Source of the DNA: Nitrospirota bacterium
GTDB lineage: Bacteria; Nitrospirota; Thermodesulfovibrionia; UBA6902
Length of the DNA: 62,828 nucleotides
Direction of reading: 5' to 3'
Assembly (NCBI GenBank): GCA_016213945.1
Contig: JACQZF010000015.1
Coordinates: forward strand, 1-62,828
Part shown: positions 9,682 to 28,234 of the stretch, piece by piece
Numbering within the stretch: the first letter of the stretch is position 1
Layout of the letters: every line of letters begins with the position of its first letter
The notes under the pieces: generated by a model
Database searches by the model: none
Told to the model about the DNA's origin: nothing
Seen by the model: the letters and a program-made list of their open reading frames with translations, nothing else
Position numbers and translations under genes: made by a program

Positions 9682-9734
9682 TTAAATAATACTCACTCTA
9701 TTCTTCAATATTGAAAACTGTTGGCAGGGACACG

Positions 9735-10739
9735 ATGTTGAATATTGAATTTCCGTTCAAGAAATTTGAGTTCCAGTTAGCACCTCAGGAACCAATCCTT
9801 CTCCCGTCTTACAAAGGCTCCACATTAAGAGGCGGCTTCGGCAATGCCTTTAAAAAAGTTGTCTGCGCTATCAGAAGTAAAGAATGCACCGATTGTCTTC
9901 TGAAAGAAAAGTGCGTTTACTCCTACGTCTTTGAGACCCCACCCCTGTCTGACACAAAGATCATGCGTAACTATACCTCAGCGCCGCACCCTTTCATCAT
10001 TGAACCGCCGCCGGAGAAAAGACAGAGTTATACTCCGAAAGACGAGATAACCTTCGGCCTCACCTTAATCGGCAAAGCAATTGATTACCTCCCGTACTTC
10101 GTTTACACCTTTGACGAATTAGGCAAGATGGGAATTGGAAAAGGCAGAGGGAAATATGTGTTGCAAACAGTCAATATTCAAAATTCAAGATTCAAAACAG
10201 ATTCAAAATCCAAAACAATCTATTCTTCCGATACCAAAACTCTCATGCCGTTTGAGCCTTCTTTTTTGAATCTTGAATTTGCAATTTTGAATTCCGAACG
10301 AAGTGAGGGTATCTTGAATCTTCAATCTTCAATCTTGAATTTAAGCTTTCTCACTCCAACTCGCATCATATATGACGGACACCTTACCCTTGACCTCGAA
10401 TTTCACATACTGATACGGCAGTTATTGAGAAGGATTTCACTTCTTGCTTATTTTCACTGCGGCCTTGATACATCGGATTGGGATTTCAAAGGGATTATTG
10501 AAAAGGCAAAAGAGGTGAAGGTTTCTAAACGCACTTTGAAATGGTATGACTGGGAGAGGTATTCTGCACGGCAGGATACAAGGATGAAAATGGGAGGATT
10601 TTTAGGGGAGATAACTTTTGAAGGGGATATTGAACCGTTCATGCCATTGATTGCGGCTGGGGAGATATTGCATGTGGGAAAGGGCACGAGTTTCGGCCTC
10701 GGCCAATTCAAGATTCAAAACTCAAAATTCAAAATATAA
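9735..10739 (+). CDS. cas6: Cas6-family pre-crRNA endoribonuclease with repeat-derived insert
   Basis: Cas6 RAMP proteins cut pre-crRNA within repeats. N-terminal motifs YKGSTLRGGFGNAFKKV and a CxxCxxxxxC cluster (KECTDCLLKEKC), the glycine-rich GKMGIGKGRGKY, and the C-terminal GGFLGEITFEGD and HVGKGTSFGLGQF loop match the PF10040-type Cas6 seen in type III loci. ATG 9735 is chosen because AGGGA precedes it. Codons for roughly residues 150-210 are built from the dispersed heptamer repeat (NIQNSRFKTDSKSK ... AILNSERSEGILNLQ), as is the C-terminal tail (FKIQNSKFKI). Both stay in frame. The insert lies between conserved blocks, so the enzyme may still work. Confidence 0.85.
   Translation: MLNIEFPFKKFEFQLAPQEPILLPSYKGSTLRGGFGNAFKKVVCAIRSKECTDCLLKEKCVYSYVFETPPLSDTKIMRNYTSAPHPFIIEPPPEKRQSYTPKDEITFGLTLIGKAIDYLPYFVYTFDELGKMGIGKGRGKYVLQTVNIQNSRFKTDSKSKTIYSSDTKTLMPFEPSFLNLEFAILNSERSEGILNLQSSILNLSFLTPTRIIYDGHLTLDLEFHILIRQLLRRISLLAYFHCGLDTSDWDFKGIIEKAKEVKVSKRTLKWYDWERYSARQDTRMKMGGFLGEITFEGDIEPFMPLIAAGEILHVGKGTSFGLGQFKIQNSKFKI
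10160..10345 (+). repeat. Heptamer/mini-hairpin repeat inside cas6
   Basis: A left arm of TCAANAT-type heptamers (from about 10170) and a right arm of TTGAATN heptamers (from 10266), ending in the 15-nt mini-hairpin CCGAACGAAGTGAGG at 10294-10308, lie within the cas6 frame. This is the only copy wholly inside a gene. Confidence 0.85.
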
Positions 10740-10868: not shown

Positions 10869-12020
10869 ATGAATTCCGTTAAAAGACAGGGCAGGTTCAA
10901 GGAAGTGGCGATATTTGTAGCCGGAACAACGCCCCAGATAATTACAGAAACCATCTATGCCCTTATCCACCAGAAGCCGCCGGTATACCCTGACGAGATT
11001 TATGTCCTTACAACAAAGAAGGGAAAAGAGGTGCTCAAGAGCAATCTTATCGACAGCGGCATATTCAAGACCTTCTGCAAGGAGTTTAAATTCGAAGAAA
11101 CTAAATTTACTGATGATTCTATCGTGGTCATAAAGAATCGTGCAGGTAAAGTCCTTGATGACATTAAAGAGGGAGAAGACAACGAGGCTTTAGGGGATTT
11201 CATAGCAGGGTTCATAAGAGATCATGCAAATGATGAGAGCACAAGACTGCACTGTTCACTTGCCGGCGGAAGAAAGACCATGTCTTTTTACATGGGCTCC
11301 TCGTTACAGCTCTTCGGTCGTCCCTGGGACAAGCTGTATCATGTCCTCGTCACACCTGAGTTTGAATCGAATCCGGCTTTTTATTACAAGCCGAAAAAAG
11401 ATGCTGTCCTAAAAAAGAACGGCAAGAATTTACACACGAAAGACGCCAGAATATATCTCGCTGAACTGCCTTTTATCAGGCTTAGAAGCAAGATATCGCT
11501 TAATGGTAAGGATTTCAGTGAGCTGGTGAGAGAAGGCCAGAAGGAAATAGACATAGCCACCCTTCAACCGGACCTTAGAATTAATTTTTCAGAGCGGACA
11601 GTTTATATTGGCGACAATCTGATTGAGATGGTGCCGGTCCAACTTATGATATATGCCGCCTATCTCCGGTATAAAACAGAACACTGTTCTCATCCGGGCC
11701 GTCCATACTGTGCAGACTGCTTTGCCTGCTTTCCGTCTGTTGCCGACATCACAAGCAAACAGGCGTTTGAAAGCATGGTGAATGAATACAGGAAGATATA
11801 TTCCTTACAGCCAATGCGCGCAGAGGAGTTGCTTGATAAGCATAAAGATGGAATGGATCCATCCGCGATAAGACAAAACATCAGCAAGATCAACAGGTCG
11901 ATCAGGGAACAGTTGAATGATGAAACGTTATTGCCATACTACATTATTAGCTCTGTTAAGAAATATGCGGGAAGCAGGTATGGGGTAAGGGTGGAAAAAA
12001 CTAAAATACAAATAAAATAA
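10869..12020 (+). CDS. NE0113/SSO2081-like CARF protein, putative ring nuclease
   Basis: The N-terminal ~200 residues match the NE0113/SSO2081-type CARF family: VAIFVAGTTPQIITETIYAL at the start and SLAGGRKTMSFYMGSSLQLFG near 135-155. Some members of this family are ring nucleases that cleave cyclic tetra-adenylate and switch type III signalling off. The C-terminal ~180 residues are a helical extension with a possible zinc site (HCSHPGRPYCADCFACF, near residues 272-288). No RNase HEPN motif (RxxxxH) was recognised there. Role here is inferred from family and from the neighbouring Cas10 and Card1-like genes. Whether it degrades or only senses the ring cannot be told. Confidence 0.75.
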   Translation: MNSVKRQGRFKEVAIFVAGTTPQIITETIYALIHQKPPVYPDEIYVLTTKKGKEVLKSNLIDSGIFKTFCKEFKFEETKFTDDSIVVIKNRAGKVLDDIKEGEDNEALGDFIAGFIRDHANDESTRLHCSLAGGRKTMSFYMGSSLQLFGRPWDKLYHVLVTPEFESNPAFYYKPKKDAVLKKNGKNLHTKDARIYLAELPFIRLRSKISLNGKDFSELVREGQKEIDIATLQPDLRINFSERTVYIGDNLIEMVPVQLMIYAAYLRYKTEHCSHPGRPYCADCFACFPSVADITSKQAFESMVNEYRKIYSLQPMRAEELLDKHKDGMDPSAIRQNISKINRSIREQLNDETLLPYYIISSVKKYAGSRYGVRVEKTKIQIK

Positions 12021-12153
12021 TTCAATATTCAAAATTCAAGACCGGAGCTGTTTATTTTGAATCTTGAATATTGAATCTTGAATCCGAACAAAGTGAGGTC
12101 GTTGTCTTGAATATTGAATCTTGAATTTTGAATCCGAGCGAAGCGAGGTTACT
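12021..12153 (+). repeat. Double heptamer/mini-hairpin repeat before the four-helix gene
   Basis: A left arm beginning at the end of the CARF gene is followed by two right arms, ending in CCGAACAAAGTGAGG (12084-12098) and CCGAGCGAAGCGAGG (12134-12148). The second places GAGG 5-6 nt before the ATG at 12154. Confidence 0.85.
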
Positions 12154-12618
12154 ATGCCAAAGAGTTTTGAGGAATTGCCTGTATGGCAGAAGGCAAGGGA
12201 ATTAGTGAATTATACTTACGGACTGACAGGGAACAATTTATTCAGCAGAGACTTCAGCCTCGTGGATCAGATAAGACGGGCGTCCGCGTCTGTTATGTCT
12301 AATATAGCTGAGGGATTCGAGAGAGGCAGCAATGCTGAGTTTATTCATTTTCTTTATATAGCCAAAGGCTCAGCAGGCGAGGTAAGGACGCAGCTTTATA
12401 TAGCGCTCGACCAGAACTATATTTCAGATACTGAATTCAGAAAAGGGTATAATCTCAGCAAGGATATTTCAGGACAGTTGAGCGGGTTCATTGATTATCT
12501 GAAAAGCTCTCGCATGAAGGGTGAAAAGTTTAATGTGAAGCATAAAAGCTGGAGGGAGGAAGTGGAGGACTTTACAAAGCAATTCAATATTCAAAATTCA
12601 AGATTCAAGAAGGAATAA
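12154..12618 (+). CDS. Four-helix-bundle protein (23S rRNA intervening-sequence type)
   Basis: The 154-aa protein matches the S23-type four-helix-bundle family: FEELPVWQKARELV at the start, then DQIRRASASVMSNIAEGFERG and FLYIAKGSAGEVRTQL. The molecular function of this widespread family is unknown; its genes often travel as passengers in defence or repeat-rich DNA. ATG 12154 is preceded by the GAGG of the repeat. The upstream in-frame MNFESERSEV is repeat-encoded and is left out. The last residues (FNIQNSRFKKE) are also repeat-encoded. Confidence 0.85.
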   Translation: MPKSFEELPVWQKARELVNYTYGLTGNNLFSRDFSLVDQIRRASASVMSNIAEGFERGSNAEFIHFLYIAKGSAGEVRTQLYIALDQNYISDTEFRKGYNLSKDISGQLSGFIDYLKSSRMKGEKFNVKHKSWREEVEDFTKQFNIQNSRFKKE

Positions 12619-12758
12619 AGCAGTTTTGAATTTTGAATATTGTATTTTAAATTCCGAACGAAGTGAGGCTGTTGAATCTTGAATATTGAATTCCGAGCGA
12701 AGCGAGGCTGTTGTTTTGAATTTTAAATATTGAATTTTGAATCCGAACGAAGTGAGGT
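12581..12758 (+). repeat. Triple heptamer/mini-hairpin repeat before csm1
   Basis: A left arm overlaps the end of the four-helix gene. Three successive right arms end in mini-hairpins at 12654-12668 (AC/GT type), 12693-12707 (GC/GC type) and 12743-12757 (AC/GT type). The csm1 start at 12769 follows with its own TGAGG. Confidence 0.85.
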
Positions 12759-19546: not shown

Positions 19547-19821
19547 TTTAAAAAGAATTCAAAATTCAATATTCAAAATTCAAAAGGACCTGGATTCCCG
19601 CTAACAAACTGCGGGAATTACAAGTTGACGGTTTTGAATATTGAATATTGAATCCGTCGCCAGGCGGAACGTTCTTTGACAACTGAAGAAAAAGAAATGT
19701 TTCTGAAATGTTTCTTTTCGTGACAAGCTCCCGCCGCGTGTTTTATCCTCAACTTAAGGATGAGCCCCTTCGACAGGCTCAGGGTGACAATCTTGAATTT
19801 TGAATTCCGAACGGAGTGAGG
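19547..19821 (+). repeat. Composite repeat region between csx3 and cas2a
   Basis: From left to right: a left arm of TTCAANA heptamers (about 19556-19585); a 'CTGGATTCCCGC...GCGGGAATTAC' palindrome (19590-19622); a right arm ending in the variant hairpin CCGTCGCCAGGCGG (19654-19667); a GAGCCCCTTCGACAGGCTC inverted repeat (about 19761-19779); and a second right arm ending in CCGAACGGAGTGAGG (19807-19821), which abuts the cas2a ATG and supplies its Shine-Dalgarno. No gene is seen. Confidence 0.85.
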
Positions 19822-20100
19822 ATGCGGACGCTTTTTCTAATCGCCTACGACATTACTGATGACAGGAGGCTGACCCAGACGAGGGAATTTCTCAAGGGCT
19901 ACAGCACCGGCGGGCAGAAGTCTGTGTATGAGTGTTTTCTGACAGACGGTGAACTTGTTCACGTTAAAAGAGCCATTGACGGGATCATTGACGAGGAAGA
20001 CGACAGGGTGCACATCTTCACAATGGATGGAAGGAGCAGGACGCATACGCTTGGCATCGGTGTCCAGCCAAAAGATCCGGAGTATTTTTATATTGGATAA
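19822..20100 (+). CDS. cas2: Cas2 (first copy)
   Basis: Cas2 is the dimeric core of the spacer-integration complex. The 92-aa sequence has LFLIAYDITDDRRL with the conserved first-strand aspartate, GGQKSVYECFL, and the C-terminal strand EYFYIG. I use the ATG at 19822 directly behind the repeat-borne GGAGTGAGG; a GTG two codons earlier also lies in the repeat. It is separated from cas1a by another repeat block, so unlike cas2b it is not translationally coupled to a cas1. Confidence 0.92.
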   Translation: MRTLFLIAYDITDDRRLTQTREFLKGYSTGGQKSVYECFLTDGELVHVKRAIDGIIDEEDDRVHIFTMDGRSRTHTLGIGVQPKDPEYFYIG

Positions 20101-20282
20101 AAAACAAATTCAATATTCAAAATTCAAGATTCAAAAAGAACTGGATTCCCGCTTACAACCTGCGGGAATGACGATTTTCCGGTTTTGAATTTTGAATTTG
20201 AAATTTTGAATCCCGAACGAAGTGAGGTTAACGTGGTTTTGAATATTGAATGTTGAATTTTGAATCCGAACGAAGTGAGGTT
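20101..20282 (+). repeat. Composite repeat between cas2a and cas1a
   Basis: It contains a left arm (about 20108-20135), a 'CTGGATTCCCGC...GCGGGAATGACG' palindrome (20141-20173), and two right arms with mini-hairpins at 20213-20227 and 20266-20280 (both AC/GT type). The last places GAGG 3 nt before the cas1a ATG and adds an in-frame MLNFESERSEV upstream. Confidence 0.85.
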
Positions 20283-21356
20283 ATGGGAACACTTTACATT
20301 GACAGAAAAGAACTTCACGTAAGGCTGGACGGCGATGCCCTGGCGTTTTATGCAAACGGCGAACGCGAAGGTATTGTCCCGATACATCCATTGAAGCGGG
20401 TGATCATGGTCGGCAATATTACGATTGAAACATCTGTGCTGAACAGGCTTGCCAATGACAATATCAGCGTGCTGTTCATCTCCGGCAAGCGAAACAGGTT
20501 CTGCGGGATGCTTCATGGGAAGATGCATAACAATGGTTTACTGAGGGTGAAACAATATGAGAAAGTTTCAGGGAATCTCCCCTCGCCCCTCTTTGCCAAA
20601 GAGGGGAACAACACACCCCTGCCCCCTCTTGATAGAAGGGAACAAATAACTCCCCCTTTGGAAAAGGGGGATAGAGGGGGATTTTCCATACAGTTTTCGC
20701 TCAATATTGTACAAAGAAAAGTTGAAGGTCAGCGTGAATTGCTTCTTTACATCAGGGAGCAGCGGCCTGATTTGCGCTTAAGAATGACAGCAGCAGCTCA
20801 GGTATTTGAAAGGATTCTTGAAGAGCTGCAAAAGCCTGATATTGGGATGGATACGTTAAGGGGCTTTGAAGGCGGCGCTTCGGCAACTTATTTCGGAGCC
20901 TATACGGAGGCCTTTCCTGGTTCGCTTGAGTTTACGGGAAGAAACAGACGTCCGCCTGAGGACCCTGTGAATGCTATTCTGTCGCTTTGCTACACCCTTG
21001 TGCATTTCGATATAGTTCGCGAGATTGAGGTGATAGGCCTTGATCCGGTTATAGGTTTTTATCATCAGTTCGACTACGGCCGTGAATCTCTTGCATGCGA
21101 TCTTATAGAACCGTATCGTCCGATGGTTGACAGGTTTGCATGGGAGATATTCCGAGAAAGGACATTCACGATCAGGGATTTCGCGATGAATGACGAACGT
21201 CCAGGATGCTATCTGAAGAAGGAGAGCCGGAAAAGATTTTATCCCATGTATGAAGAATGGGTGCAGAATACACGACCGCTGTGGGTCGAAGATGTGAGAG
21301 AGCTTGCAAGGAGGATAATGGATGGGCAGGACACTGTACATAAATCAGACGAGTAA
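20283..21356 (+). CDS. cas1: Cas1 (first copy, catalytic residues present)
   Basis: Cas1 is the integrase that inserts new spacers. The metal ligands expected for the family are E196 (GFEGGASATYF), H261 (FYHQFDYGRES) and E276 (CDLIEPYRP). Residues about 98-137 are encoded by two palindromic repeats (SPLFAKEGNNT, PPLEKGDRGGF) in frame, between the N-terminal beta domain and the helical domain, so 357 aa would be about 317 without them. I start at ATG 20283; the upstream MLNFESERSEV is repeat-encoded. cas1b overlaps its end by 35 nt. Confidence 0.92.
   Translation: MGTLYIDRKELHVRLDGDALAFYANGEREGIVPIHPLKRVIMVGNITIETSVLNRLANDNISVLFISGKRNRFCGMLHGKMHNNGLLRVKQYEKVSGNLPSPLFAKEGNNTPLPPLDRREQITPPLEKGDRGGFSIQFSLNIVQRKVEGQRELLLYIREQRPDLRLRMTAAAQVFERILEELQKPDIGMDTLRGFEGGASATYFGAYTEAFPGSLEFTGRNRRPPEDPVNAILSLCYTLVHFDIVREIEVIGLDPVIGFYHQFDYGRESLACDLIEPYRPMVDRFAWEIFRERTFTIRDFAMNDERPGCYLKKESRKRFYPMYEEWVQNTRPLWVEDVRELARRIMDGQDTVHKSDE
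20574..20692. repeat. Palindromic repeats inserted in frame in cas1a
   Basis: Two neighbouring inverted repeats (CCCCTCTTTGCCAAAGAGGGG and CCCCCTTTGG.AAAAGGGGG types) encode PLFAKEGN and PPLEKGDRGGF. Related sequences lie in frame in the activase gene (about 26405-26455) and livF (about 41520-41565). Confidence 0.8.
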
Positions 21357-22420: not shown

Positions 22421-22644
22421 AAATCCTACACCGATTCAAAATTCAAAATGTTTTGAATCTTGAATTTTGAATATTGAATCCCAAACAAAGTGAGGGTATA
22501 GTCTTGAATTTTGAATATTGAATTTTGAATCCAGCCGAAGGCTGGTTAAAAGGAGGTGAAAGTAGGTTGCTACTAAACAAGACAAAAATCTGCACAACCG
22601 TCGCTGTAATTCAAAGAAATATAAAAACAAATGGCATGTGGGCG
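22421..22644 (+). promoter_or_regulatory. CRISPR leader with two heptamer/mini-hairpin repeats
   Basis: The gap between cas2b and the first repeat starts with a left arm (about 22435-22449) and two right arms ending in CCAAACAAAGTGAGG (22481-22495) and the fully paired hairpin CCAGCCGAAGGCTGG (22531-22545). About 100 bp of A-rich unique DNA follows (22546-22644) with a strong but orphan AGGAGGTGA at 22551-22559. The array reads rightward because repeats end in ATTGCGAC (like the usual ATTGAAAC handle) and decay at the right end. Confidence 0.6.
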
Positions 22645-23462
22645 GAATCAAAGAAGACCTTATGAAAAAGGGATTGCGACGCGCAATTACGCCAGAAAAG
22701 CGATTTTTAAGCGAATCAAAGAAGACCTTATGAAAAAGGGATTGCGACCGGCCTTTGCTGCGACTTCTGTGTACTTTTTCATAGAATCAAAGAAGACCTT
22801 ATGAAAAAGGGATTGCGACATTACTGTTTACGTGTTTCCATAAGGCTTCGAGAATCAAAGAAGACCTTATGAAAAAGGGATTGCGACTTATAAGAGTTTC
22901 GTCTGTTATTGTTGGAAAGCTGTGAATCAAAGAAGACCTTATGAAAAAGGGATTGCGACATTACCGTAAGTGCGATCAATACTCTTCTCGTTGAATCAAA
23001 GAAGACCTTATGAAAAAGGGATTGCGGAATCAAAGAAGACCTTATGAAAAAGGGATTGCGACCCGTGTACTCATGCCTGTCCGATAGTCTCGGCGAATCA
23101 AAGAAGACCTTATGAAAAAGGGATTGCGACTTTTCGTCACACTCTTCCACTTACGGTAATTACCGGAATCAAAGAAGACCTTATGAAAAAGGGATTGCGA
23201 CCGTACTTCTTGCCGGATTTCTTATCCGTACCGTGAATCAAAGAAGACCTTATGAAAAAGGGATTGCGACTCCTTTTCAGGACAGTCAAAGGCAGTATGC
23301 AAATCGAATCAAAGAAGACCTTATGAAAAAGGGATTGCGACATCCATTTTTTTCTCCTTTTTTCATTTTTATTAAGAATCAAAGAAGACCTTATGCAAAA
23401 GGGATTGCGACACTGCTTTAAACCCGGAGACGCCGATAGTTGAGCGAATCAAAGAAGACCTT
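22645..23462 (+). CRISPR. CRISPR array: 12 repeats plus a 17-nt partial, 11 spacers
   Basis: The repeat is 36 nt, starts GAATCAAAGAAGACC and ends AAAAGGGATTGCGAC. Repeats begin at 22645, 22713, 22784, 22852, 22924, 22993, 23027, 23095, 23166, 23235, 23306, 23376 and 23446. Spacers are 32-36 nt. The sixth repeat lacks its last two bases and abuts the seventh with no spacer. The twelfth has one substitution (ATGCAAAA), and the thirteenth stops after 17 nt and runs straight into purN-like coding sequence. The terminal decay marks the right end as the oldest, leader-distal end. One spacer (23342-23375) is almost pure A/T pyrimidine tract. Spacer targets are unknown. Confidence 0.98.
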
Positions 23463-23931
23463 GTACTACTCTCATATCGCTGAGGAATTGAAAAAGAGGG
23501 ACGTTGAATTGGTTGTCCTCGCGGGCTTCATGAGAGTGGTCGGCAAGGCGCTCATTGATCAGTACCGGAATAAGATCATGAACATCCACCCTGCCCTGCT
23601 CCCGTCATTCCCCGGACTTCACGGACAGAAACAGGCTGTTGATTACGGGGTGAAGATCTCCGGCTGCACAGTGCATTTCGTGGACGAAGGAATGGACACC
23701 GGGGCGATAATCATCCAGGCCGCGGTCCCGGCATATCATGATGATACTGAAGAAACCCTTTCGGAAAGAATATTGAAACAGGAACACAGGATATTCCCGT
23801 ATGCTATCAAGCTTTACTCAGAAGGCAGGATCTCAGTTGAAGGCCGAAAGGTGATCATCAAAGGGGACAGGGAAGATTCCTCACTCATAAACCCGCCGTT
23901 CTCTCCATACATTCTCCAGCCTGGTGCATAA
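23463..23931 (+). pseudogene. purN: purN fragment, 5' third missing
   Basis: From YYSHIAEELKKRDVELVVLAGFMR onward this is glycinamide ribonucleotide (GAR) formyltransferase, the formyl-tetrahydrofolate-dependent third step of purine synthesis. The catalytic region NIHPALLPSFPGLHG and SGCTVHFVDEGMDTGAII are present. The first ~75 residues (phosphate-binding GSGSN loop) are missing: the CRISPR array's partial repeat joins directly to the coding sequence. A TTG at 23440, inside the last spacer, is in frame but lacks a convincing ribosome-binding site. The purM gene on the other side of the CRISPR locus indicates that purM and purN were once neighbours. Probably non-functional unless another purN or purT exists. 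Its end overlaps the convergent activase gene. Confidence 0.88.
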
Positions 23932-26900
23932 AAGCCTCAAGCTGTATCTCGGAGCAGGTTGTCTCCGCGCCGTCGAATGCGACGCTGAGACACGGTAGTG
24001 ATGCGTCCTGTTTGAGTCCTTTCAGCAAGGCGCTGACGATGGTGCCGGGCATACAGCCGAAAGGCATTGCGCTGATGATCCCCGATGCGCCGTGTTTAAC
24101 AAAATCCACTGCCTTGCCCATGCTCAGGACAGCCTCACCTTCAAAGGAATCATGGAGATACGGAGAGGCATTTTTCAATATTTCGGAGGTGGAAGGTTCT
24201 TTCACCGTCTTTAGAAATCCTTTAAACGGCTTTGCAAATTTGTGTTCTATCCTGTTCTGAACAAATCTTGTGGCTACCGTGCTCAGTAAATCCTTTGCGA
24301 GCTGCTGGGTGAACAGATCACTGCGCAGCCTTACGAGTGATTTCCTTAGCGACATAAGGTTCACATAATAGATCCATTCTTCCACCGGGGCCAGCCATAC
24401 CTCTCCGCCCAGGGCCTCGATCTTTCTGATAAGGTTTTCATTTGCAAACGTATTGTGCCTGACAAATATTTCTCCAATGATCCCGATGAGCGGCCTTTTC
24501 TCTCCGCTCTTTTTTATCTCTGAAAAATCCCTGCGCATATCGCTGAAAAGCGCGTCCATCGCGCCGTTATCGCTCTTCAGGGCCGTGCTTATCTTTTTCA
24601 GATACTCCTGATACAGGCGGTCTGTCCCGCCTTTATTGATCTCATAGGGCCTTGTCTCATGAAGACATTTCATCAGGAGCTCAACTGCGATGATCCCTCT
24701 CCATGCCTGTTTTGTAAAGTCCTTTCCGACCATCCCGAGCACAGTATAAAGGGACTCATCCTGGTTGGGGGAAAAAATCGGGACATCAGGAAAGCCCACC
24801 TCATCAAGCACCAGCCTGTGGAAGACATTATATTGCCCGAAACGGCACGGGCCCGCGCCTGACGGCATGAAAAAGGCGGCCCTGTCAGGTTCGAAATCCT
24901 TTGACATGGTTTTCTTCACCATATCGCCTGTCGTAATCGCGCACGGGTAACATTCTTTCCCGGAGACATGACGCCTCCCGATCTTGACGGTCTCCGTGTC
25001 GGGGATATTCATTACCTCGGCATCAAGACCGCACTTCTCAAAGGCGGCGGCAATGCCGAACGCATGGTCCGACATACGAGGTATATAAACAATCCGTTTA
25101 TGAAGCGCGGAAGAATCTTTCACTTTTTTTATTTTCTTTTCTTCTGTATTCTGACTTCTGACTTCTGACTTCTGACTTCCGCCTTCTGCCCTCTGCCCGT
25201 CGATGCTGTCAAGAAACGCCTCGCATCTTGTGATGACCCCGGCGTCTGCGCTGTGTTCATCGATCTCTATATGCAGAAACGGCTTGCCCGCCATGGTCTC
25301 ATTAAAAAAGTGATGAATGAACGAATCCGGGCCGCAGGAAAAATTGCCGATGTAGAGCGCGAATAATTTAGGGTTGTCCTTTATTATCTCGGCGGCCCTC
25401 AGAATATTCTGCCCTGACCTCCAGTACATGTTGGCCCACCTGCCTGAGATGTCAACAGAATCTAACGGTAAGTAGTCCATGGGGATTGAAAACACTCCGA
25501 GCGCCGCAAGCTTCTTCGGTATCTCGAGATTGATCCCGTTATCAAAGGCATTGTAGGGACGGCCAAGAATAACTATCGTCCTTCCGGTTATGTTTGCCAG
25601 GACCTCCTCGCCGCGTTTTTTTATGGCGGAGGCAAACTCCTTCTGCGCGCGCTCCGCTTTTTCAAGCGCTTCCTTTATGGCGGTCTTTGTTATGCGAAAG
25701 GTTTTGAGATATTTAAACAGTTCATCTACGAGATACTGCCTTCCCCGGTCATGGTTGATTATCGGCTTGAGCAGTCTGACATTTCTAAAGGCTATCCCCG
25801 CAAGATAAGGCATGGTCTGAGCGTATGGACAGGCAAAGCTCCGGACGGATTCACTGTCGGGATTGAAGTTTATAAAACTCGGCAGGAATATCGCGTCGAC
25901 ATTTTTGTCCATCAGGTCTTTTATATGGCCGTGCGCAACTTTGTGCGGGAAGCAGCTTTCTGAAAGGATATTCTCAACGCCCTTGTTTATTATCTGCCTG
26001 TTCGTGTTGTTTGAAAGTTCAACTTCAAAACCGAGCTCCCAGAGAAGCGTGCTCCATAACGGCAGGTGATCGTGGAAGAAAAATATCCTCGGAATGCCTA
26101 TCCGAATATTATTTGGTCTTTGACTTCTGACTTCTGACTTCTGACTTCTGACTTTTTCATATTCCCTGTGCGCTCTCGTGAGCAGCTCTTCTCTTTCGGC
26201 AAACAGGTCAGGCATGTTCTGCGAAGAAACCTTCTGCTTTCGCTTGACGTCATATTTTTCGCACCTGCTGCCATAGTAGAGAGGTTCTTTCTCTCCCTCC
26301 ACCTGGACCCTGTTTATCTCGCACAGATTATCGCAGCCCCTGCACATGAAGGACTTGATTTCGTAACTTCTCTTTGACAGGTCGAAGCCCTTGAACCGTG
26401 AAGAGGTATCACCCCCCCTGTATCCCCCCTTAGTAAGGGGGGAATTTAAGGGGGGTGACTTCTGACTACTGACTACTGACTTCTGGCTTTCCATATGTCT
26501 CTTCGCTATTATCGCCATGCCGATCGCGCCTGTTACGTCATGATGGGGCGGCACGATGATCTCCCTGCCGACATAATTTTCAAAGGCGGCAACAACGGAT
26601 TTATTGAAAGCAACACCGCCCTGGAAAAATATCTTTTTGCCGACAGCCCTGTCGCTGACAACGCGGTTAATGTAATTCTGGACTATGGAGTAAGCGAGCC
26701 CCGCAGTGAGGTCTTCTTTTGCGGCGCCCTTCTGTTGTTTTGACAGGAGAGAATTTTCCATGAACACAGTGCATCTCTCACCAAGGGAACAGGGCTTTTC
26801 AGATTTAAATGCGATCTCGGCAAATTCGTTCTTCACTGCGATGCCGAGCTTCTCAGCCTGTTCCTCAAGGAAAGAGCCGGTCCCGGCTGCGCACGCCTTG

Positions 26901-28234
26901 TTCATTTCAAAATCAACAATGATGCCGTCTCTTATGGAAATATATTTTGAATCCTGCCCGCCTATCTCAAAAATAGTATCTACTTCAGGGTCAATCTCTA
27001 TTGCTGCCTGGGCCTGCGCGGTGATCTCATTCTTAACAATATCCGCACCCACAAAATCCGCGATCATATACCTGCCGGAGCCTGTTGTACCGACACCGCA
27101 GATGTTTACCTTGTCTCCGACTTCAGCCCCTATTTCCTCAAGGCCCTGCTTAACCGCCTCAATGGGCCTTCCCGCAGTCATGAGATATCTCTTTGCGAGC
27201 AGTCTGCCCTCTTCATCAAGGACGGCAAGATTAGTGCTTATTGATCCGATATCAATACCGAGGTAGGCGTTTAAAGGCAGTGACGGGTGACGGGTGACGG
27301 GTGACGAGTTCAAAGATGAATCATATTTTCCGTTTTTCTCCTGACTCCTGACTTCTGACTCCTGACTCCCTGTTTTTCTGAGTGGTTTATGCCCGGCGCT
27401 ATCGTCTTTCAGGGATTCAATCAATAATTTCAGTTTTTCTATTTCAAAAGGATTTTCTTTTCCTTCCTCCATGTCTTTCAGCGCTGCGCCTATCGCCGTC
27501 ATTATCGCGAAGTGTTCAGGGATTATCAGGTTGTCTGCGGACAATACTTCTCTGAACGCCCTGACAACGCCTTTGTTGGCTGCGACCCCGCCCTGAAAAC
27601 TGATGGGCTGAGGCAGTTCCATGTTTTTGCATATGCTCCCTTTGAAATTTCTCGCAACCGCAAAACAAAGCCCCGCGACAATTTCCTCAACAGGCGTAGC
27701 TATCTGCTGAAGATGGATCATGTCCGATTTCGCGAAAACGCTGCACCTGCCGGCGATCCTTGGAGGATGTTTGGATTTCAGAGACATCTCGCTGAATTCC
27801 TCAATGGCGAGGTTCAGCCTCTCCGCCTGCTGGTCGATAAATGACCCCGTGCCTGCCGCACAGGCGGAGTTCATGGAGAATTCTTTGATCGCCCCTTTTT
27901 CAAGGAGGATGAGCTTTGAATCCTCGCCGCCCATTTCCATGACGGTTTTGACATCAGGGAAAAATTTCCTGGTTGAATAACTGATGGCGACGACTTCATT
28001 TACAGGTTTGATGCCGAATGCGCCGGCAATGATCTTACCCGCTGAACCGGTAACGGAGAGTGACAGGTCCGGCCCTGAAGGCAGTGGCGTTATGCCTTTT
28101 AGTAATTCATAAGCAACCGCAAGCGGATTACCCTTGTGCCTGACGTATCTGGTCTCAAGGATATTTCCTGCGATATCCAATATTACAAATTTTACGCTTA
28201 CTGAACCTGCATCAAGTCCTATGAATCTCTTCAT
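23885..28234 (-). CDS. Acyl-CoA dehydratase activase-like fusion (2x BcrAD_BadFG + DUF2229 + HgdB-like)
   Basis: The 1449-aa protein fuses two ASKHA-type activator domains (FIGLDAGSVSVKFVILD at the start; YLGIDIGSISTNLAVLDEEG near 325), each with the ACAAGTGSFxxxQAExL motif, to DUF2229 (FMCRGCDNLCEINRVQ; IGIPRIFFFHDHLPLW) and a HgdB/FldB-like part (SGKECYPCAITTGDM). Activators of 2-hydroxyacyl-CoA dehydratases use ATP to inject an electron from a [4Fe-4S] cluster; the substrate of these long fusions is not established. Four stretches are repeat-encoded, including [10 protein letters not shown]-type linkers (about 25140-25200, 26118-26156, 26405-26490, 27280-27375), all at domain boundaries. 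Cytoplasmic, oxygen-sensitive by family. Confidence 0.85.
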   Translation of the reverse strand: MKRFIGLDAGSVSVKFVILDIAGNILETRYVRHKGNPLAVAYELLKGITPLPSGPDLSLSVTGSAGKIIAGAFGIKPVNEVVAISYSTRKFFPDVKTVMEMGGEDSKLILLEKGAIKEFSMNSACAAGTGSFIDQQAERLNLAIEEFSEMSLKSKHPPRIAGRCSVFAKSDMIHLQQIATPVEEIVAGLCFAVARNFKGSICKNMELPQPISFQGGVAANKGVVRAFREVLSADNLIIPEHFAIMTAIGAALKDMEEGKENPFEIEKLKLLIESLKDDSAGHKPLRKTGSQESEVRSQEKNGKYDSSLNSSPVTRHPSLPLNAYLGIDIGSISTNLAVLDEEGRLLAKRYLMTAGRPIEAVKQGLEEIGAEVGDKVNICGVGTTGSGRYMIADFVGADIVKNEITAQAQAAIEIDPEVDTIFEIGGQDSKYISIRDGIIVDFEMNKACAAGTGSFLEEQAEKLGIAVKNEFAEIAFKSEKPCSLGERCTVFMENSLLSKQQKGAAKEDLTAGLAYSIVQNYINRVVSDRAVGKKIFFQGGVAFNKSVVAAFENYVGREIIVPPHHDVTGAIGMAIIAKRHMESQKSVVSSQKSPPLNSPLTKGGYRGGDTSSRFKGFDLSKRSYEIKSFMCRGCDNLCEINRVQVEGEKEPLYYGSRCEKYDVKRKQKVSSQNMPDLFAEREELLTRAHREYEKVRSQKSEVRSQRPNNIRIGIPRIFFFHDHLPLWSTLLWELGFEVELSNNTNRQIINKGVENILSESCFPHKVAHGHIKDLMDKNVDAIFLPSFINFNPDSESVRSFACPYAQTMPYLAGIAFRNVRLLKPIINHDRGRQYLVDELFKYLKTFRITKTAIKEALEKAERAQKEFASAIKKRGEEVLANITGRTIVILGRPYNAFDNGINLEIPKKLAALGVFSIPMDYLPLDSVDISGRWANMYWRSGQNILRAAEIIKDNPKLFALYIGNFSCGPDSFIHHFFNETMAGKPFLHIEIDEHSADAGVITRCEAFLDSIDGQRAEGGSQKSEVRSQNTEEKKIKKVKDSSALHKRIVYIPRMSDHAFGIAAAFEKCGLDAEVMNIPDTETVKIGRRHVSGKECYPCAITTGDMVKKTMSKDFEPDRAAFFMPSGAGPCRFGQYNVFHRLVLDEVGFPDVPIFSPNQDESLYTVLGMVGKDFTKQAWRGIIAVELLMKCLHETRPYEINKGGTDRLYQEYLKKISTALKSDNGAMDALFSDMRRDFSEIKKSGEKRPLIGIIGEIFVRHNTFANENLIRKIEALGGEVWLAPVEEWIYYVNLMSLRKSLVRLRSDLFTQQLAKDLLSTVATRFVQNRIEHKFAKPFKGFLKTVKEPSTSEILKNASPYLHDSFEGEAVLSMGKAVDFVKHGASGIISAMPFGCMPGTIVSALLKGLKQDASLPCLSVAFDGAETTCSEIQLEAFMHQAGECMERTAGL
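25140..25200 (-). repeat. Heptanucleotide repeats in the activase gene, copy 1
   Basis: Tandem TGACTTC units (7 nt) read on the minus strand as a seven-residue period (SQKSEVR). Frame is kept. Confidence 0.85.
26118..26156 (-). repeat. Heptanucleotide repeats in the activase gene, copy 2
   Basis: About four TGACTTC units in frame, encoding [13 protein letters not shown] between the second activator domain region and DUF2229 parts. Confidence 0.85.
26405..26490 (-). repeat. Palindromic plus heptanucleotide repeat in the activase gene
   Basis: A CCCCCCTTAGTAAGGGGGG-type palindrome encoding NSPLTKGGYRGG is followed by TGACTNC heptamers (SQKSVVSSQKS), all in frame. Confidence 0.85.
27280..27375 (-). 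repeat. Two kinds of heptanucleotide repeats in the activase gene
   Basis: GTGACGG x4 (about 27280-27308, encoding SSPVTRHPS) and CTGACTY units (about 27340-27370, encoding SQESEVRSQE) lie between the two activator domains. Confidence 0.85.

Follow-up and report, generated by a model that had tools for sequence, protein, structure and literature searches.

The cas6 gene and its CRISPR locus

The window, by which we mean the whole 62.8-kb stretch of Nitrospirota DNA analysed here (62,828 nucleotides), contains a type III-A CRISPR locus headed by cas6. The further genes of the locus encode a Csm6-type ring nuclease, a four-helix-bundle protein of the 23S_rRNA_IVP family (PF05635; IVP in the following), Cas10/Csm1, Csm2, Csm3, Csm4, a Card1-like protein and two Cas1 proteins, along with two short genes identified by eye as cas2. 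A gene two genes upstream of cas6 was likewise identified by eye as rnc, and a CRISPR array with ten exact copies of a 36-nt repeat runs from 22645. The spaces between the genes of this locus repeatedly contain TTGAATN heptamer tracts and a mini-hairpin of 15 nt, both of which are also found within cas6 itself. The features are given below, with (+) for the plus strand.

9747-10739 (+): cas6; residue 1 is E at 9747 as aligned, and the ORF opens at 9711
10169-10213 (+): site A, heptamers in the ATTCAAN orientation, coding for approximately residues 143-155 (NIQNSRFKTDSKS)
10218-10262 (+): native residues 158-172 (IYSSDTKTLMPFEPS), separating the two repeat blocks
10266-10292 (+): first TTGAATN tract of site B (LNLEFAILN), with GCA at the in-frame TGA slot
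10294-10308 (+): mini-hairpin CCGAACGAAGTGAGG, within the codons for SERSEG
10314-10340 (+): second TTGAATN tract of site B (LNLQSSILN), with TCA at the in-frame TGA slot
10706-10732 (+): ATTCAAN heptamers coding for the C-terminal tail of Cas6, approximately the last 10 codons
10764-10805: heptamers and mini-hairpin directly 3' of cas6
12020-12148: mini-hairpins and heptamer arrays of both orientations, preceding the IVP gene
12154-12618 (+): 23S_rRNA_IVP (PF05635, 1.1e-35) four-helix-bundle gene, whose 3' end reads into an array (QFNIQNSRFKKE)
12582-12757: heptamer arrays in both orientations and mini-hairpins, from the 3' end of the IVP gene to cas10
19557-20280: heptamer arrays and mini-hairpins flanking a short gene identified by eye as cas2, up to cas1
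22434-22545: heptamer arrays and the variant hairpin CCAGCCGAAGGCTGG, preceding the CRISPR array

The cas6 gene is a single open frame through to 10739. Its product matches the family HMM PF10040 (3.2e-21; 76.3 bits against a cut-off of 25) and scores 41.5 bits with the NCBIfam equivalog TIGR01877, below the curated cut-off of 58.65. A second cas6, the finding that the initial annotation had set against its own reading, was looked for in the genome and was not found, 9747-10739 being the sole match. Structure prediction of the insert-bearing protein, carried out with AlphaFold from 80 sequences, points to an intact fold, with a mean pLDDT of 91 and top Foldseek matches in the PDB that are Cas6 proteins or Cas6 domains (4ill, 6dd5 and 4c9d among them; best E 4.7e-12). 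The pLDDT reaches 97 over residues 161-170 and is lowest, at 58, over the hairpin-coded residues 181-190, with values of 80-85 in the other blocks of the linker between the two Cas6 halves and of 74 for the last ten residues. Repeat-coded residues 143-144, 173-174 and 196-199 lie at strand ends in the model. In six comparisons the core of Cas6 has a dN of 0.12-0.16 against a dS of 1.4 to saturated, and the linker a dN of 0.41-0.64, lower than its dS of 1.0 to saturated; given this excess of dS over dN, together with the repeat-coded residues at strand ends, the linker is not free of constraint. With one copy, a low dN in the core and an intact predicted fold, the cas6 gene looks intact.

Related loci offer several observations on the neighbourhood of the gene. 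In the window, purN (23440-23931) is without its N-terminal part, as Pfam positions 64-181 of 181 are matched, and adjoins a partial CRISPR repeat; the gene order in the same-genus locus L034 is rnc-purM-cas6 remnant-purN. The order rnc-purM-cas6-csm6 is common to the window and L028/L079, where csm6 is 89% identical and cas1 and cas2 match, but the cas10 of L028/L079 is only 26% identical, so that a differing effector module stands between well-matching parts. The contigs of two genomes of the genus stop at the identical base inside cas6, ahead of the repeat (L032 at its end and L033 at its start), and their last 60 bases are identical.

Repeat-coded residues, reading frame and mRNA folding

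It had been claimed at the outset that cas6 took up the repeat of the CRISPR locus in frame, and the sequence bears this out, since the heptamer tracts and the mini-hairpin all lie within the open frame. The hairpin is indeed located at 10294-10308, and the last ten or so residues are encoded by heptamers in the ATTCAAN orientation (10706-10732), both as the initial annotation had it. The accompanying figure of about 60 repeat-coded residues in mid-protein describes the affected stretch well, which comprises 57 residues (143-199), but overstates its repeat content; only about 40 of these are repeat-coded, in two blocks of approximately 13 (143-155) and 27 residues (173-199) that flank 15 native ones. 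Within the native segment, Y159 is nearly invariant across 80 aligned proteins.

As coding sequence, the two orientations of the heptamer behave differently. None of 192 model ATTCAAN arrays bears a stop codon in any frame; all 192 TTGAATN arrays do so, in every frame, with TGA once per 21 nt. With a unit of 7 nt, the frame is restored after three units. In cas6 both in-frame TGA slots are changed, to GCA and TCA, and TTGA is kept in 38 of the 44 units of 12 intergenic tracts on the same strand. The altered slots of cas6 follow from its frame being open, and they illustrate the constraint without being an independent proof of selection. Arrays in the ATTCAAN orientation would simply be read through, and those in the TTGAATN orientation would survive in genes only where the TGA slot has turned into a sense codon.

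Two readings give the repeats a function at the level of the cas6 mRNA. The initial annotation had speculated on self-regulation, by which Cas6 would bind or cut its own mRNA at the mini-hairpin; this proposal failed on fold energies, on likeness to the CRISPR repeat and on presence in homologs, and has next to no probability left. A small hairpin can be drawn, and all eight exact copies of the genome have G-C or A-T as its inner pair, but seven of these copies lie outside cas6 and the RNA fold is weak (-1.7 kcal/mol, with 129 of 200 shuffles folding as well); no fold was obtained with DNA parameters. The parameters used may underestimate the stability of tandem G.A pairs and GNA loops. Neither the mini-hairpin nor the cas6 linker is more like the CRISPR repeat than it is like shuffled repeats, as shuffles scored as high in 210 of 300 cases (sense) and 300 of 300 (reverse complement) for the former, and in 200 and 54 of 300 for the latter. 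The exact pattern occurs in two of 80 named Cas6 loci, inside cas6 in neither, and with one mismatch allowed the pattern was absent from the 19 other cas6 genes obtained from relatives (L007-L025); among the cas6 genes fetched, that of the window is the only one in which the hairpin was seen. A stronger stem is formed by the heptamer arms themselves (10171-10201 with 10260-10290), which are 31 nt in length and 87% complementary, and the putative rnc lies nearby, which would suit cleavage of this stem by RNase III and thereby a tuning of Cas6. When the whole CDS is folded, the first arm pairs into the second with a mean probability of 0.83, and the interval 10165-10296 folds at -24.8 kcal/mol (z -4.7; -4.4 in a second run). 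These values are, however, window-dependent, with z of -2.35, -0.81 and -0.45 in other folding windows, and when 36 of 82 linkers were folded (median z -0.73), that of the window did not rank in the top ten by z-score, such that regulation by RNase III appears very unlikely.

The repeats in the genome and in Cas6 homologs

The repeat pattern in the locus exceeds chance. The exact hairpin pattern CCGANCGAAGNGAGG occurs in eight copies in the 3.5-Mb genome, all within the CRISPR locus, and a search for three heptamers with at most two mismatches finds 55 matches, which overlap in part; the 12.4-kb locus accounts for 35 of these and ten other contigs for the remaining 20; the backwards control gives 0 in both searches. 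Across 101 genomes searched, the heptamer (at most one mismatch) was present in 52 and the hairpin pattern in 24, counts that include this genome and some chance matches. In the latter 24 genomes the inner hairpin pair is, by eye, almost always G-C or A-T, with 9 exceptions in 141 matches, and in many of the contexts listed from relatives the hairpin forms the core of a different dispersed repeat, GTCATT-hairpin-AATCT. For this last reason, an origin of the hairpin from REP/RAYT elements was set aside, no link having been made to the Y1 transposase genes of the genome (four matches). Viral carriers of the repeat were also rejected, as no relative of Cas6 was found in viral contigs and TTGAAT adjoins the hairpin in two of them, in both cases as a single unit in the stretch shown.

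Among the 80 named Cas6 loci fetched, and the aligned relatives from further genomes, the linker is the variable part of the protein. Its DNA has a 7-nt periodicity in 12 of 79 cas6 genes, the window included, whereas two control regions of these genes score 0 and 1 of 79, and at any other lag from 4 to 12 at most one linker is periodic. The excess is significant by Fisher's test (1e-5, or 3e-5 for the 11 of 78 without the window), with p-values that are too small because the homologs are related. The units themselves vary: TTGAATN is found in the window, L080 and L087, GAGTTAN in L007 and L081, and TTGAACC in L089, with AACTCNG among further units and still others in L137, L124 and L108. Independently of the heptamers, different peptides were recognized by eye in the same linker, namely a VIPAKAGIQ-type at site A in L007, L081, L083, L098 and L102, and an LEKGG/LGKGG-type in L079, L080, L086 and L094. 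The palindrome that encodes VIPAKAGIQ is found genome-wide in two carriers (77 copies in G038 with 1 in the control, and 24 in G028 with 2), and a pattern search for the LEKGG repeat returned nothing in G026, though the cas6 of G026 carries that peptide. The tails of Cas6 in L007 and L107 likewise end in ATTCAAN heptamers. By these sequence comparisons, the Cas6 linker is a recurrent and apparently tolerant landing site for repeats.

Part of site B (LNLES-x-ILN, LNLE.x.ILN) is common to several homologs with changed codons, and may for that reason be an older uptake, or a native motif, that predates the hairpin. Were it an old native motif that merely resembles the heptamer, only the hairpin, the second tract, site A and the tail would count as uptake, and the related motifs with changed codons in L079, L080, L083, L084, L087 and others would be explained. 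Against this, (TTGAATC)n reads LNLES*I, with its stop at the very slot that is variable, and L087 retains a 7-nt periodicity at 0.79; the native motif is thus a rather improbable account of site B. An assembly artefact at the repeats has even less to recommend it. Short-read contigs often break at repeats, and contigs of G002 and G009 end inside cas6, though before the repeat; in the window, however, no tract interrupts the reading frame and the sequence on either side aligns to homologs, which leaves an artefact barely conceivable. The repeat in cas6 is real and lies in frame; it is most likely tolerated, and one case of a recurrent process.

IVP genes and a proposed origin of the heptamer arrays

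The IVP gene of the window (12154-12618) is located between csm6 and cas10, not inside a 23S rRNA gene, and sits amid TTGAATN arrays on both sides and in both orientations, that is, between terminal inverted repeats. An IVP gene of 73-78% identity also follows cas6 in L093, L107, L109 and L111, and three of these loci have it after csm6. TTGAATN arrays border the gene on either side in L093, L107 and L111, and only on its downstream side in L109. Two CRISPR loci with the same heptamer-hairpin composite, L026 and L027, gave no IVP match.

To place this arrangement in a wider frame, PF05635 genes were taken from relatives and from the genome itself, which gave 92 loci, 75 of them usable. In 34 of the 75 a flank reaches a 7-nt periodicity of 0.75, compared with 6 of 75 segments at least 650 nt away; at lag 8 the numbers are 13 and 1, and among the loci fetched after the idea arose they are 22 of 54 and 5 of 54. 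The flanks of other genes in CRISPR loci are periodic in 32 of 910 cases, approximately 13-fold less often (Fisher 4e-24), a control that is not fully matched because its genes come from CRISPR loci and not from whole genomes. Genomes reached via the named loci, mostly of other phyla, have lag-7 flanks at 11 of 23 IVP genes and at 0 of 23 controls. Where both flanks bear arrays (at least 0.64; 39 loci), comparing the upstream unit with the reverse-complemented downstream unit gives a match of 0.65, where units of other loci reach 0.45 (sd 0.10); the inverted comparison beats the direct one in 33 of the 39 and is the best of all partners in 18. A plain alignment test is weaker: in 8 of 75 cases the inverted score of the same locus exceeds the 99th percentile of scores with other loci, and in 40 of 75 it exceeds the highest score from 15 other loci. 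IVP genes, in the window (12020-12757) as in loci L161-L255 and L256-L285 from this class and from other phyla, are often enclosed by gene-specific arrays of 7 and sometimes 8 nt, more often inverted-like than direct. The association of IVP genes with heptamer arrays is strong; these genes may be mobile, and the repeats may have spread from them. The link between the IVP gene and cas6 is drawn from their common unit and their nearness only.

The heptamers may alternatively be generic tandem repeats grown by slippage, with no causal link to IVP genes and merely tolerated by Cas6. At a periodicity threshold of 0.8, the window has 14 arrays with lag 7, whereas lags 5, 6 and 8-11 yield none; 12 of these arrays are found past the 25-kb mark, over 12 kb away from the IVP gene. 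In addition, TTGAATN arrays of this genome occur on contigs C54, C73, C98, C61, C76, C42 and C86 with no IVP match at 1e-8 in stretches of 2-3 kb, the IVP protein of the window serving as query. The 13-fold more frequent flanking of IVP genes speaks against slippage of this kind, as do the paired arrays of one gene, usually more alike in inverted than in direct comparison, and we consider it unlikely. At the other extreme, IVP genes with gene-specific inverted heptamer arrays might be widespread mobile or array-generating cassettes that seed 7-nt repeats into the genes around them, with the linkers of Cas6 and other proteins as fossils of this activity; this broader proposal is tentative, and somewhat more doubtful than not. 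The explanation that we favour is narrower and probable: the linker between the Cas6 halves and the C-terminus would be places where short interspersed repeats, for the most part 7-nt arrays, can land and be tolerated; these would stem from the IVP cassette or from the same process, and a function of the insert is not needed. The repeats of Cas6 do lie in frame, mostly in loops and at the tail of an enzyme that is otherwise intact and conserved, and in other cas6 genes this linker carries heptamers of different units, or peptides from palindromic repeats. The arrays would belong to the heptamer-flanked IVP cassette of the locus and would have spread from there or been produced by the same generating process.

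In-frame uptake of repeats is itself already known. Rickettsia palindromic elements, of about 150 bp and in ten sequence families, occur in frame in unrelated genes (PMC10969869). The repeats of cas6 resemble them as short in-frame repeats within proteins predicted to stay compatible, and as insertions into an otherwise conserved gene; unlike them, they are 7-nt arrays of several units that recur in the linker of one protein, and a single conserved element sequence and peptide is not found, as the units differ between homologs. The tandem repeats of Borgs are also located inside ORFs, commonly as disordered segments, and have units divisible by three (PMC9879509), whereas the unit in cas6 is 7. 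Intervening sequences of 23S rRNA bear an S23p/IVP ORF between inverted repeats, and that of Coxiella has tandem heptamers upstream of the S23p ORF and a 28-bp terminal stem (PMC4990558); the gene described here differs in belonging to a CRISPR locus and in having heptamer arrays on both sides. The TAACTGA repeats of Beggiatoaceae are likewise largely intergenic 7-nt arrays that bear stops in one orientation and are open in the other, but they are centred on one unit, and the terms four helix, S23 and 23S rRNA are absent from the main text of their description (PMC4679880). Cas loci have been reported to contain 18 IVP genes, frequently together with Cas4 and/or Cas6, in a passage that says nothing of flanking repeats (PMC3936711). 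Within the part of the literature covered by the search, nothing was found on repeats inside cas6 or on heptamer arrays around free-standing IVP genes, no paper joins the heptamers of intervening sequences with IVP genes in cas loci, and cassettes of IVP genes with inverted heptamers are not described. What is new here is that one linker is affected again and again, that the unit measures 7 nt and that the arrays are associated with IVP genes.

The repeated uptake of different units by the linker of one catalytic protein amounts to a natural experiment on insertion-tolerant loops. In turn, the frequent position of IVP genes amid gene-specific, usually inverted 7-nt arrays in several phyla opens a testable route to a common protein family whose function is unknown, one that also occurs beside cas genes.

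Heptamer arrays are also encoded elsewhere in the window. A BadF-type activase protein of 1449 residues (23885-28234, minus strand) contains five of the 14 lag-7 arrays, all in frame, at residues ~288-300, 307-319, 582-594, 691-709 and 1012-1033, of SQKSEVR-type and, in one case, CGTCACC-type. All five lie at most 25 residues from the edge of a Pfam match, the stretches shown being 325-577, 711-921 and a weak one below the cut-off at 958-1011. The first Cas1 of the locus carries an in-frame insert at 20550-20700 with a PPLEKGDRGGF-type repeat peptide, and its Pfam match is split in two stretches.
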